A stretch of DNA of 64,000 nucleotides from an uncultured Clostridia bacterium. GTDB lineage: Bacteria; Bacillota; Clostridia; UMGS1883. Under the pieces are notes generated by a model that was not told the DNA's origin, searched no databases, and worked only from the letters and a program-made list of their open reading frames with translations. A program made the translations under genes and the position numbers. This document shows positions 41,977-47,007 of the stretch, piece after piece (within the stretch, counting starts at the first letter, position 1; each line of letters starts with the position of its first letter). The DNA lies in NCBI GenBank assembly GCA_947626145.1, contig CANQRB010000005.1, positions 62,001 through 126,000 of the forward strand. Reading direction: 5' to 3'.

Positions 41977-42438
41977 TTACGAATATTTATCGCCCAAAAG
42001 CCTCCTGACTACTTTTACGTGTTCGACCCCGGCCTCGATAAAAACGTCCGAGGCGCGCCCGTACCCGCATTTTTCATAAAACGGGAGTGCCCGGAGCTTG
42101 GCGTCCGCCTCAACGCTCCTCACGCCCGACGCCCGGCAATAATCCTCGATAAGCTCCATGGCCGCCCGGCCAAGGCCCAGCCGCCGGAACTCCTTCTGAA
42201 TACAAAAGCGCTGAACCTTTACCCTGCCCTCCGGTTTGCGCATGAGCCTGACCGCTCCGGCGTCAACCCCGCCGTACACAAGCAAAAAGTGAGCGCAGCG
42301 GCCGTCAAGGCAATCGTATTCGTCCGCCTCTATTTCCTCCGGCACGCCCTTCTCCACGGTAAAAACCTCCCTGCGTATCCGGAGGCAGCGAGCGAGAATA
42401 TCATCGTTCCCGGCTTTGATAAACTGAATTTGATCCAC
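41977..42438 (-). CDS. GNAT-family N-acetyltransferase
   Basis: A 153-residue GNAT enzyme resembling the ElaA/YjcF type: N-terminus RCLRIRREVFTVEKGVPEEIEADEYD, acetyl-CoA loop QKEFRRLGLGRAAMELIE (R-x-x-G-x-G), and C-terminal ALPFYEKCGYGRASDVFIEAG. The acceptor substrate is unknown; small molecules or protein N-termini are possible. It lies about 95 bases downstream of the murE-argB gene in the same direction, separated by a hairpin. Confidence 0.87.
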   Translation of the reverse strand: MDQIQFIKAGNDDILARCLRIRREVFTVEKGVPEEIEADEYDCLDGRCAHFLLVYGGVDAGAVRLMRKPEGRVKVQRFCIQKEFRRLGLGRAAMELIEDYCRASGVRSVEADAKLRALPFYEKCGYGRASDVFIEAGVEHVKVVRRLLGDKYS

Positions 42439-42532: not shown

Positions 42533-44884
42533 TTATTTCCGTATGGTGGTGCCGACCTTTTTGGCGGATATAAGGCTGGAAATCAGATTGTTTTTCACCT
42601 TGCCGTTGAGGATCTCCACCTCGGATACGCCGTTCTCCACAGCCTCAACGATGTTGCTCAGCTTGGGTATCATGCCCCCGCCCACAAAGCCGTTCCCGAT
42701 GAGGAGTCTGGCCCGGGCGGAGCTGAGGGACTCGACCACGGTCTTTTCGTTGTTTTTGTCGATGAATATGCCGTTCACATCGGTAATGAACACCAGTCTG
42801 TTTGCCCGCAGCTGCCTTGCCACGGCGGTGGCGGCGTCGTCGGCGTTGACGTTCAGCGGCTCGCCCTCGGGGCCGGAGCTCACCGGTGAGACCACGACCA
42901 CATAACCGGCGTCCAGAAGCTGACCAATGAGGTGGCAGTTCACGGAGGTTATCTCCCCCACAAAGCCCAGATCGGCCCCGTCCGCGGTTCTGCGCACGGC
43001 GGAAATCGTGCCGCCGTCCCGGCCGCTGATACCGACGGCCTTTACTCCGCAGGCCGAAATGGCGCCCACCAGACGCTTGTTGACGCTGCCGCTGAGGGCC
43101 ATTTCCACAAAGCCGATCTCCTCCTCGCCGGTGACGCGGTAGCCGTTTTCGAACCGGCTCTCAATGCCGAGGCGGTTCAGCAGCGCGTTTATTTCCTTGC
43201 CGCCGCCATGCACCACGGTTACTCTCGCCCCCACCATGGAGAGGAGAGAAATGTCCTCCATCAGAGAGCGGGTCAGCTCACGGTCCTCCATGACGCTGCC
43301 GCCCAGCTTTATGACCACGTTCCGTCCGTACAGTCGGTGGAGCGCCGGAAGAATATCCTGAAAGCCCTTTATCTTTTCGGTGGCGTCTATCTCGTGGACG
43401 ACGTCATACTCGTCCAGATATTTTCTGGTGTATTCCACGTCGCTGGGGCAGTCGATGTACTGTATGCCCCGCTTTTGACGTGTCTCGTCGCCCTTGCCGG
43501 TGATGAGCACCACCGTGGGTTCGTCACAGTCCATAATGGAGCGGCGGATGGCCTCGCCCCTGTCGTCGATCATCTCGCACTCTCCGCCGACGGCCTTAAC
43601 GTACTCCGCTATTTCGGCGGAAATCTGCCCCACGGGCTCCTCGCCGGGGTCCTCCTCGGTGATATAGACCTTTTTGGAGTACCGACCGGCTATGGTGCCA
43701 AGATCACGGCGGCGGTCAAAGGCCTTTTTCCCGGGGCAGCCGAACACGGCGACGATGGCCCTGCCGGGGTATTCCTTGCGGACGGAGGAAAACAAATTCT
43801 CGAAGCTGAGCTTGTTGTGGGCGTAATCCACAATGACGGTAACCGTCTTGTCGGCATTGGCGTACACCTCCATGCGGCCCTTGCTCCGCGCCTTCATGAG
43901 GCCGGTGAGCATATAGCGGCTGTCGATGCCCAGAGCCATGGCTATACCGATGGCGGCCAGGGCATTTTCCACATTGAACAGGCCGGGTATGGTGAGAGTG
44001 AACTCCATGTCGAAGTCCTTAGTTTTTACCATAAAGGCCGTATCGCTGTCGCTCTTGTGTATTCCGTAAGCGAAAATATCGGCGTCTGCCCTTTTCTGGG
44101 AGAAGGTTATTACCCTTCCGGCGGCCTTTGCCGCCTCGGCCACCTCGTCGGCACGGTCGCAGTCGAGGTTTATGACGGCGGTCTTACAGTTTTCAAACAG
44201 CTTCAGCTTTGACCTGAAATAGTCCTCAAAGTCAGGGTGCTCAATGGGGCTTATGTGATCCACCCCTATGTTAAGAAAGCAGCCCACCGTGAAGTCCACG
44301 CCCAAAACGCGGTCATACTTCAGAGCCTGACTGGAGACCTCCATTGTCAGATAATCTATGCCGCTGTTCACGGCGTTGCTGAAATGGCGGTGAAGATCAA
44401 AAGGCTCGGGAGTGGTGAGATGGCTCTCGAAATTCTCGACCCCGTCATAGGTGTCGATGGAGGAGATTATGGCCGACTCCTTTTTGTTTTCCGCCCGCAG
44501 AGCCTCGTCAAGGATATACTTTACGAAATAGGCGGTCGTGCTCTTGCCCTTTGTGCCGGTTATCCCGACAAGGTTCAGCCTGCGCCATACGCTGCCGTAG
44601 TAATAGTTGGCCATGAGGGCCATTGCCCGGCGCACGTCGTCCACAATTATGCTCGGCAGCTCCACGCCCATGTCCCTTTCGGCCACATAGGCCACGGCCC
44701 CTTTTTCGGCGGCGTCGCTGAGATATTCGCTCTTAAAGTGGGCCCCCTTGCACAGAAAGAGGGTGTCGGGGCGTATGTCGGTGGAATTGCAGGAGATATA
44801 GGCTATTTCCTTTTCAAGGTCTCCCCGGGTCACGGTACCGATGCCGTTGTTTTCAAACAGCTCCGCGAAATCTCTCAATATCAT
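42533..44884 (-). CDS. MurE-like Mur ligase fused to N-acetylglutamate kinase (ArgB)
   Basis: A 783-residue fusion. Residues ~1-500 are a complete Mur ligase of the MurE type: ISCNSTDIRPDTLFLC, P-loop LVGITGTKGKSTTAY (about 110), TMEVSSQALKYDR, NIGVDHISPIEHP and VDYAHNKLSFENL. Residues ~520-783 are a complete ArgB-type kinase: VVIKLGGS, VVHGGGKEIN, GISGRDGGTI, NVNADDAATA and GGMIPKL. The frame runs unbroken through the linker. The DNPR motif of diaminopimelate-adding MurE is replaced by EEDPGEEP, so lysine or ornithine is more likely. Its ATG overlaps the racemase stop. Both activities are predicted intact; the reason for fusion is unknown. Confidence 0.88.
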   Translation of the reverse strand: MILRDFAELFENNGIGTVTRGDLEKEIAYISCNSTDIRPDTLFLCKGAHFKSEYLSDAAEKGAVAYVAERDMGVELPSIIVDDVRRAMALMANYYYGSVWRRLNLVGITGTKGKSTTAYFVKYILDEALRAENKKESAIISSIDTYDGVENFESHLTTPEPFDLHRHFSNAVNSGIDYLTMEVSSQALKYDRVLGVDFTVGCFLNIGVDHISPIEHPDFEDYFRSKLKLFENCKTAVINLDCDRADEVAEAAKAAGRVITFSQKRADADIFAYGIHKSDSDTAFMVKTKDFDMEFTLTIPGLFNVENALAAIGIAMALGIDSRYMLTGLMKARSKGRMEVYANADKTVTVIVDYAHNKLSFENLFSSVRKEYPGRAIVAVFGCPGKKAFDRRRDLGTIAGRYSKKVYITEEDPGEEPVGQISAEIAEYVKAVGGECEMIDDRGEAIRRSIMDCDEPTVVLITGKGDETRQKRGIQYIDCPSDVEYTRKYLDEYDVVHEIDATEKIKGFQDILPALHRLYGRNVVIKLGGSVMEDRELTRSLMEDISLLSMVGARVTVVHGGGKEINALLNRLGIESRFENGYRVTGEEEIGFVEMALSGSVNKRLVGAISACGVKAVGISGRDGGTISAVRRTADGADLGFVGEITSVNCHLIGQLLDAGYVVVVSPVSSGPEGEPLNVNADDAATAVARQLRANRLVFITDVNGIFIDKNNEKTVVESLSSARARLLIGNGFVGGGMIPKLSNIVEAVENGVSEVEILNGKVKNNLISSLISAKKVGTTIRK

Positions 44885-45591
44885 TCATTATCACCTTTCA
44901 ACTTTCCGCCGCAGAGGGTTATGCAGCGCTCCACAAGCACCCCCATGGCGTCCACATAGTAGCTGTCCAGCTCGTGATTGGCACGGAACACGCTGAGCTC
45001 GGTACAGCCCAGGATCGCCCCGTCGCACCCGTTCTTTTTCATGAAAAGGTCAACGGCGGCAAAGTCGTCCCGGTCGCCCTTCTGTCCGGCCTTTATCTGT
45101 TCGTATATGATACTCATGACGGTTTTCTGGTGCTTTGCGTCGGGGACAAAGGGCGTGATGCCCCGGCTCTCAAGCGCCTTCTGGTACAGGCCTGACCTGA
45201 CCGTCCCTTCTGTGGCCAGGATGCCGACCTTTTTCATTTCCGGCCGTTTGTCACGGATATAGCCGGCGGTCTCCTCTATCATATTGATTACGGGTATGTC
45301 CACGGCCTTCTCTATGTCCGATATAAAATTGTGACTGGTGTTGCAGGGCACGGCCAGTATGTCCGCCCCGGCGGCGCGGAGCTTGCGGGCGTCGGCGGCC
45401 AGCAGGGCCCTCACTCCGGCGGTATCGCCGCTTTCGATGGCGGCGGTGCGGTCGGGCATGGAGGCGTGGCTGTAAATCAGGATGTCGATGTGATCCTGAT
45501 CCCGTCCGGCGTCGGTGCGGGCGATGATTTCCCTGTACATAACCTGGGTTGCCTCGGGACCCATTCCGCCGATAATTCCAAGTGTCAGCAT
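44881..45591 (-). CDS. aspartate/glutamate racemase family protein
   Basis: A 236-residue PLP-independent racemase: LGIIGGMGPEATQVMYREII, the two catalytic cysteines in AVPCNTSHNF and ILGCTELSV, and the substrate threonines around them. The GGMGPEAT start is typical of aspartate racemases (RacD/YgeA), so D-Asp is the likely product. ATG 45591 is preferred to the longer frame, which overlaps the upstream gene. The order ligase-racemase-MurE-ArgB, with a 16-base gap and an ATGA overlap, indicates one operon in which this enzyme feeds D-Asp to the ligase. Confidence 0.88.
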   Translation of the reverse strand: MLTLGIIGGMGPEATQVMYREIIARTDAGRDQDHIDILIYSHASMPDRTAAIESGDTAGVRALLAADARKLRAAGADILAVPCNTSHNFISDIEKAVDIPVINMIEETAGYIRDKRPEMKKVGILATEGTVRSGLYQKALESRGITPFVPDAKHQKTVMSIIYEQIKAGQKGDRDDFAAVDLFMKKNGCDGAILGCTELSVFRANHELDSYYVDAMGVLVERCITLCGGKLKGDNE

Positions 45592-45607
45592 GGCAGGACC
45601 AACTTTC

Positions 45608-46825
45608 TCAGGACTTTTTGCCCAGATATTTTTTGTATTTCGCATAGTGGGAATTGTGCTGCTTTATGAGCCTTAACAGCCGTCCGGGCCTGTTGTCGCC
45701 CTTATAGAACAGCGGATTGACCACACGTCCCTGACGGATGAGAGATTTCATACGGGTTTTATACTCGGTGGGAGCTATGTAGTCAAAGGCCACCTTTTCG
45801 GGCACCACAAGCCAGAGGTTTTCCCTGTCGGCAAAGACCGTGTCACCCAGATCTTCGTTTCTGATATGATCCTTTACCGCATATTCGGCTATGTTATAGC
45901 CCGCCCCGGTCACATAAAAATTGCTGCGGCCCTGACGGACGTTGATCTCGAACACCTTGAACTTTCCGTCCCGCCGGTCGAACTTGATGTCAAAGTTGGA
46001 AAATCCGGTGAAGCCTATCTCCTCAAGCAGGGCCTTGAATTTTTCCATAAGCTCACGGTCGTACTCGTTTATAATGACGGCGTGGTTGCCTATCCCGTAG
46101 GGAGTGTGCTCCTCAAGGAGCACATGGCCCAGGCACATGAGCTTTACCCTGCCGTTTTTGTCGGAATAGTTGGTGAGCACCCGCATATAGGTGTCGTCGC
46201 CGGGGATGAAGTCCTGCACGATGAGATTGTCCTTATAGCCGCTGTTGTACACCGCGGCCACGGTCTCCCTCAGCTCCTGAAGGGTGTCCAGCTTAAACAC
46301 CTTTTTCTGTCCCTCGAAGGGATGGGCAAAATACTGGGGGCCGTTGCAGGGCTTGAGGATATAGGGCGCGCCAAAGTCGGGAGTTACCTCCATGGTGTTG
46401 GGCGTGCAGACATAGGTGGCGGGATATTCGATACCGTGCCTGTCGCACAGCTCATAGAACTTCTCCTTATCCATAAGGCTGTTCAGCAGTCCGGCGCCGG
46501 CGTAGGGAGCCACAATGCCGTCGGCCAGCCTGTCCCTGTTCTCGGCAATTAGGCGGACATAGTTGTCGCCGCAGCCCATGAGGAGCACGGGCTTGTCCTG
46601 TCCCGCGGCGAAGCTGTTCACCGTCTTTACAAAAACCTCCGGATCGTCAATATCCGGTACGGTCATCTGATTTATCATTTTACTGTCGGCGCAGGGAGCG
46701 CCGGATTTTTTCCCGATTGAAGTTGAACGCAGTCCGTAGGCCTCGTGAAAGGCACGGGCCACACTGTAAACGTTTATATCGTTACCCAAGAGAAGGGTGA
46801 CAAATTCCTGTTCTTTAAATTCCAC
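45608..46825 (-). CDS. ATP-grasp carboxylate-amine ligase, probable D-aspartate ligase
   Basis: A 405-residue ATP-grasp enzyme: EFVTLLLGNDINVYSVARAFHEAYG at the N-terminus, MDKEKFYELCDRHGIEYPATYV, APYILKPCNG, LIVQDFIPGDDTYMRVL, and FKVFEINVRQGRSNFYVTGAG with metal-binding Glu and Asn. This resembles the D-aspartate ligase of Enterococcus faecium (Aslfm), which attaches D-Asp to the third-position lysine to build the peptidoglycan cross-bridge. The adjacent racemase strongly supports that role. GTG 46825 follows AGGGG by about 10 bases and matches the family start; ATG 46864 would add unrelated residues. Confidence 0.82.
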   Translation of the reverse strand: MEFKEQEFVTLLLGNDINVYSVARAFHEAYGLRSTSIGKKSGAPCADSKMINQMTVPDIDDPEVFVKTVNSFAAGQDKPVLLMGCGDNYVRLIAENRDRLADGIVAPYAGAGLLNSLMDKEKFYELCDRHGIEYPATYVCTPNTMEVTPDFGAPYILKPCNGPQYFAHPFEGQKKVFKLDTLQELRETVAAVYNSGYKDNLIVQDFIPGDDTYMRVLTNYSDKNGRVKLMCLGHVLLEEHTPYGIGNHAVIINEYDRELMEKFKALLEEIGFTGFSNFDIKFDRRDGKFKVFEINVRQGRSNFYVTGAGYNIAEYAVKDHIRNEDLGDTVFADRENLWLVVPEKVAFDYIAPTEYKTRMKSLIRQGRVVNPLFYKGDNRPGRLLRLIKQHNSHYAKYKKYLGKKS

Positions 46826-47007
46826 ACAATCAACCCCTAAGACACAAATATTAAATCCGCGCAAAAACCCGCGGTGTCATCTAAAGTATTTTATCATATT
46901 TTTTAACGTAATGCAAGGATTTTTTTACAAACATATATAAATTGTTGGAACCGTGGGCCGGTGTATCCTGCTAAATCCGCCGGCCGACAGCTTATTAACG
47001 CAAAAAG

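Follow-up and report, generated by a model that had tools for sequence, protein, structure and literature searches.

A MurE-type ligase fused to an N-acetylglutamate kinase in Clostridia, and its possible place in a second peptidoglycan

The locus and its genes

The window, a stretch of 64,000 nucleotides from an uncultured gut bacterium of the Clostridia, contains on its minus strand a single 783-codon open reading frame (exactly 42533-44884, 783 aa, zero internal stops) in which a complete non-DAP MurE is followed by a complete N-acetylglutamate kinase (NAGK). The plus strand over the same positions is interrupted by stops. Both halves exceed the cut-offs of curated profiles: TIGR01085 murE reaches 308.8 bits (cut-off 257.3) over residues 25-475, and TIGR00761 argB 224.5 bits (cut-off 151.3) over residues 523-758. 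The Pfam domains found are Mur_ligase_M, Mur_ligase_C and AA_kinase. An AlphaFold2 model of the whole protein has mean pLDDT of 83.7 and pTM of 0.56; in Foldseek comparisons it matches whole NAGK structures (2jj4, 2bty, 2buf) with TM of ~0.9 and whole MurE structures with TM by target of at most 0.88.

A previous sequence-only reading of this DNA had proposed such a fusion in one unbroken frame, and our analysis confirms it. Its coordinates were correct, with no strand named, and its linker at about 43320-43400 agrees with the one in Table 1. What it overlooked were the operon, the separate ordinary copies of murE and argB that this genome carries, and the decay of the kinase half in other genomes.

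Table 1. Features of the fusion gene and its two upstream neighbours
Feature	Position	Strand	Basis
MurE-type ligase half ("MurE2")	43400..44884	-	residues 1-495; TIGR01085, Mur_ligase_M and Mur_ligase_C, invariant ligase residues
EEDPG replacing the mDAP motif DNPR	43643..43657	-	residues 410-414; E411 aligns with S. aureus Asp-406
Linker	43364..43399	-	residues 496-507; AlphaFold2 confidence low at 501-509
N-acetylglutamate kinase half, N-helix retained	42533..43363	-	residues 508-783 and stop; TIGR00761, Foldseek, 11 invariant residues
Asp/Glu racemase gene	44881..45645 (start may be 45591)	-	ATGA overlap with the fusion; TIGR00035
ATP-grasp ligase gene, AslA-like	45608..46864	-	homology to lactobacillar carboxylate-amine ligases, ATP-grasp fold

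The fusion is the last of three genes on one strand, and the racemase gene upstream of it overlaps or abuts the ATP-grasp gene. The racemase scores 219.5 bits with TIGR00035 (against 93.1), has aspartate racemase 1jfl as its best PDB match, is 36% identical to the L. curvatus racemase and possesses both catalytic cysteines, in PCNTS and GCTE. Family score and the two cysteines thus point to an aspartate racemase. Because the protein also passes the cysteate racemase model CuyB (215.9 against 190), its substrate is not fixed and may be other than D-Asp.

The ATP-grasp protein shares 37-40% identity over 94-97% with three lactobacillar carboxylate-amine ligases, from L. crispatus, L. fermentum and L. 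curvatus. In plasmid records these matches amount to 39.5% for L. crispatus (beside asnB), 38.9% for L. fermentum, which we take to be the same organism as L. cellobiosus, and 37.2% for L. curvatus, whose ligase lies directly behind an amino acid racemase. The predicted structure has the ATP-grasp fold; its Foldseek matches include amino acid ligases, and third in the list is PylC, an enzyme that joins D-ornithine to the lysine side chain. If the lactobacillar ligases are AslA, as their context suggests, then fold, homology and the adjoining racemase suggest that the protein of the window is of AslA type. D-Asp bridges are usual in lactobacilli, where AslA, an ATP-grasp ligase, makes them, and in L. 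lactis racD and aslA share one operon (passages of PMC4155827). A 2024 review refers to work on walls of L. cellobiosus that deals with ornithine and aminosuccinyl-ornithine (PMC11382707).

Searches for regulatory RNA in the window gave 0 Rfam matches, and the counts of promoters and terminators in it were not above those in shuffled sequence.

Spread of the fusion and its companions

From a scan of 84,980 species genomes, which gave 286 relatives, we retained the best 80 loci and analysed all of them. A full-length fusion, defined as at least 740 aa, is present in 56 of these best 80 loci, in Clostridia from other assemblies; together with the window they make up the 57 fused proteins counted below. 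Two further loci are cut by contig ends (L057, L060), 9 have a shortened, decayed kinase half and 13 have no kinase. Among the carriers are cultured Pseudoflavonifractor strains and [Clostridium] viride DSM 6836. In the window's own family, 7 of 8 genus members have the full-length fusion and none of 13 other genomes does; in the eighth genus member, whose genome has a completeness of 76%, the ATP-grasp gene is still present. Confinement to a single assembly, which the sequence-only reading had named as a possible refutation, therefore fails, cultured isolates being among the carriers, and an assembly chimera is rejected by the same counts in the genus and at the best 80 loci.

All 61 loci with both companions show the same arrangement on one strand, ATP-grasp first, then racemase, then MurE2; the ATP-grasp gene occurs at 62 and the racemase at 66 of the best 80 (of 286). 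Several loci missing trio genes are short contigs, and the genomes of the Intestinimonas loci L034 and L036 carry the ATP-grasp gene at another site. In one clade of Clostridia from the guts of ruminants and deer (L011-L015, L059), the intact fusion has neither an ATP-grasp nor a racemase gene nearby, and three of the clade's genomes (G021-G023) lack the ATP-grasp gene altogether. A GNAT acetyltransferase gene (41977-42438, minus strand), about 95 bases behind the fusion in the window, is probably not part of the module, being conserved in only 1 of the best 80 loci (L006).

An even sample of 293 genomes of the class contains MurE2 (E <= 1e-110) in 16 genomes and the AslA-like gene (E <= 1e-40) in 29. 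Both occur in 9, always on one contig (Fisher 1.9e-6). Since the genomes are related, the value calculated by genus, 1.1e-4, is the safer figure. All 6 fused genomes of the sample carry the AslA-like gene; the 7 MurE2 genomes (of 16) without it are all unfused, and 20 of the 29 AslA-like genomes are without MurE2. A census at the level of the order comprised 14 genomes only and gave no usable result.

The sequence-only reading had proposed looking for a second murE and a second argB. The window's genome (2.44 Mb, 95% complete) has each of them apart from the fusion, so that the fusion as sole copy of either is rejected. The second murE (C6) has DNPR and adjoins frames that, judged by eye, look like mraY and the gene of a penicillin-binding protein; the second argB adjoins an apparent argC and keeps the arginine site. 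This genome also has argJ and dapF. Among 25 fused genomes examined whole (7 + 18), a separate full-length MurE exists in 23 (G006 has only a partial one, G026 none), a separate ArgB in 24 (all but G025) and the AslA-like gene in 22 (all but G021-G023). An ordinary MurE is found in 28 of the 30 MurE2-carrying genomes examined.

Residues kept and lost in the two halves

In all 81 MurE2 proteins the carbamoyl-Lys, the Mg-binding Glu and His, D353 and H356 are invariant. These residues and the model score identify MurE2 as a putative UDP-MurNAc-tripeptide synthetase. The mDAP motif DNPR, read in 18 of 18 distinct co-located ordinary MurE, is found in none of the 81, and Arg never occupies its fourth position (Gly in 78, Glu in 3); with EEDPG instead, MurE2 is probably not an mDAP-type enzyme. 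Position 406 is Glu in 78 and Asp in 3, those three having a decayed kinase, and position 460 is Glu in all. In S. aureus MurE, Asp-406 and Glu-460 bind the lysine side-chain amine, while Asn and Arg of DNPR bind the mDAP carboxylate (sections of PMC3829189). Acidic residues at 406 and 460 and the missing Arg would therefore place MurE2 in the L-Lys or L-Orn type. In the tree, made by a quick method with several long branches flagged, MurE2 groups with the lysine-type enzymes of E. faecalis and L. curvatus and with Collinsella MurE, apart from DNPR enzymes (SH-aLRT 100); of the characterised MurE kinds in the comparison, the lysine type stands closest to it. Outside Clostridia, the closest MurE found is that of Collinsella aerofaciens (L086:7851-9413, 40-42%), which likewise has Glu-Asp-Pro where DNPR is expected and adjoins asnB. 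In the open-access literature we found nothing on the wall type of the carriers or of Collinsella.

Glu at 406 in place of Asp would suit the shorter ornithine, though this is only an idea. Glu occurs there also in 13 of 13 unfused MurE2. Deinococcus has a wall of the Orn type, and its MurE does not share this Glu, which weakens the residue as an ornithine mark. Judged by sequence, the substrate may be either Orn or Lys.

In the kinase half, 11 residues (K8, G11, G44, G45, R66, N158, N160, D162, G184, G213, K217) are invariant in 57 of 57 fused proteins, with kinase halves as little as ~44% identical to that of the window. A pseudokinase in the lineage of the window is rejected, as every residue checked is kept. 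The invariance of R66, N158 and N160, which we take to be N-acetylglutamate-site residues, also disfavours a new acceptor for the kinase, as the sequence-only reading had considered. The curated model and these catalytic and substrate residues qualify the fused half as a probable N-acetylglutamate kinase. The roles of K8, G11, G45, D162, G184, G213 and K217 are taken from passages of PMC3329491, which also locate the arginine site among the N-helix, helix H and the loop that follows the latter. We recognised arginine-inhibited NAGK by the N-helix Tyr and the C-terminal signature HxxxxE(x5)GxGT. Ordinary standalone ArgB have the Tyr in 30 of 30 scored (one row cut), and the first Gly of GxGT and the Glu in 31 of 31 each. 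In fused kinases Tyr and Gly occur in 0 of 57, His in 42 and Glu in 20, so that they would not belong to the arginine-inhibited group. A branch with SH-aLRT of 100 separates the fused kinases from 40 standalone ArgB (31 of them ordinary, 4 belonging to a second type and 5 dead). Because catalytic residues are kept and the arginine site is lost, the fused kinase is predicted to be active and arginine-blind; the cell's own ArgB looks arginine-inhibited. The idea of a private ornithine supply draws chiefly on this combination.

Among the best 80 loci (of 286), 9 have a decayed kinase half and 13 have lost it. In the tree, decay falls in two separate clades and loss in others, hence the kinase half is not indispensable to MurE2. 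The remnants (L064-L066, L068-L070, L072, L079 and L085, beyond residue 480) measure about 150-230 aa; in all 9 the N-helix survives, as does the C-terminal helix including its His, but the ATP site is gone. Where the kinase half is decayed or lost, the cell may import ornithine or obtain it through the main pathway, or else use lysine.

Another observation concerns five ArgB paralogues (L102, L105, L107, L109, L120, in genomes G039, G041, G046, G040, G050, respectively) that have lost catalytic residues and keep the whole arginine-binding signature (5/5). In 4 of the 5 genomes the dead ArgB is accompanied by an intact ArgB belonging to a different type (L103, L104, L106, L108). Such paralogues have two separate origins in the ArgB tree, and all genomes in which they were seen have a decayed fused kinase. 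They are candidate arginine-sensing pseudokinases. A strict pairing of kinase decay with ArgB decay fails: a dead ArgB is present in 5 of 7 decayed-half genomes, the only ArgB found in G042 and in G043 being intact.

A possible second peptidoglycan

We suggest, giving it an even chance, that the fusion is a bifunctional enzyme for a second, non-DAP, D-Asp-bridged peptidoglycan with ornithine as third residue, in which a feedback-resistant NAGK supplies the ornithine. The kinase half would phosphorylate N-acetyl-L-glutamate, the committed step to ornithine, free of arginine control. ArgC, an ArgD-type transaminase and ArgJ of the ordinary pathway would then yield L-ornithine, and the MurE half would place it (or lysine) in the second stem. 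The racemase would supply D-Asp, which the ATP-grasp ligase would attach to the side-chain amine. The result would be an Orn-D-Asp (A4-beta-like) stem alongside the mDAP stem from the ordinary MurE, and the fusion would match ornithine supply to its use while the cell's own arginine-inhibited ArgB is shut off. The sequence-only reading had already suggested ornithine or lysine as third residue, with the kinase feeding the diamino acid supply. The non-mDAP MurE half, the neighbours resembling those of D-Asp bridges and the intact kinase without arginine-feedback site favour this suggestion, with either amino acid. Counting against our explanation are the decay and loss of the kinase, the fused genomes G021-G023 without an AslA-like gene and, in the class sample, the MurE2 genomes without one as well as the AslA-like genomes without MurE2.

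MurE2 may instead add L-lysine, D-Asp-bridged as in most lactobacilli, while the arginine-insensitive NAGK serves general arginine and ornithine supply and the fusion means mere co-expression. We regard this as somewhat unlikely. It agrees with the lysine type as nearest characterised kind among those compared, with the same trio around unfused Lachnospiraceae MurE2 that have no kinase, and with the ~400-fold preference of S. aureus MurE for Lys over Orn (PMC3829189). Yet it leaves unexplained why NAGK and not a lysine enzyme joined MurE, and 78 of 81 MurE2 have Glu at 406, where the lysine-type E. faecalis enzyme has Asp.

The chemistry of the kinase half might also be of little weight, if it is mainly a structural or regulatory module for MurE2 (hexamer scaffold, sensor). 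Decayed halves in two separate clades do retain both terminal helices and lose the ATP and substrate sites, but in the other 57 proteins no checked catalytic or substrate residue has changed even at ~44% identity, and we consider this explanation quite improbable. Most improbable of all is a role of the trio outside the wall, in making a soluble D-Asp peptide or some other metabolite. With an ordinary MurE in 28 of 30 genomes, a wall is possible without MurE2, and cyanophycin synthetase, among the weak matches of the MurE half, also pairs Mur-like and ATP-grasp enzymes; against this, the ligase residues and motifs of MurE2 are those of ordinary MurE, and no other biosynthetic genes were seen travelling with the trio at the loci examined.

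In the open-access literature searched we found no description of a MurE-NAGK fusion, which does not prove absence. The components have known relatives. With L-lysine-type MurE (S. aureus 4c12/4c13, E. faecalis, L. curvatus) MurE2 shares the three-domain fold, the ligase residues and the lack of Arg at the fourth motif position; it differs in Glu for Asp at 406, in the C-terminal kinase and in having an mDAP-type MurE besides in the genome. Hexameric, arginine-inhibited ArgB (2bty, 2buf, 2jj4) has the whole fold, the N-helix and the checked catalytic and substrate residues in common with the fused kinase, which in contrast sits behind MurE and in 57 of 57 cases has other residues for the Tyr and Gly of the arginine site. 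As in the racD-aslA operon of lactic acid bacteria, a racemase stands beside an AslA-like ligase (36-40% identity to lactobacillar proteins), but here a dedicated MurE with kinase completes the group, and the Clostridia concerned possess an mDAP-type MurE as well. The natural MurE-MurF fusion (8f5d) is likewise built on MurE; MurF performs the next peptidoglycan step, whereas the partner here comes from arginine synthesis. NAGK is part of a multifunctional protein or metabolon also in NAGS/NAGK and yeast Arg5,6, where the partners are neighbouring steps of the same pathway.

If our explanation is true, then a single enzyme couples the first committed reaction in the synthesis of an amino acid to the ligase that consumes this amino acid, across two pathways and with the feedback site removed. 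A bolder version appears rather doubtful to us: that common gut Oscillospiraceae and their relatives have mDAP and Orn-D-Asp walls in one cell, and that the substrate state of MurE gates the fused arginine-blind NAGK, giving a private ornithine supply immune to arginine repletion. Our preferred reading, the bifunctional enzyme, predicts an undescribed second wall type in genera common in the gut. A table in the 2024 review leaves the peptidoglycan type blank for Coprococcus, Oscillibacter, Ruminococcus and Ruminiclostridium, and the review also describes muropeptides with L-lysine or L-ornithine as NOD2 agonists (PMC11382707), so that the wall type bears on sensing by the host. The prediction of a second wall would be directly testable in cultured strains.
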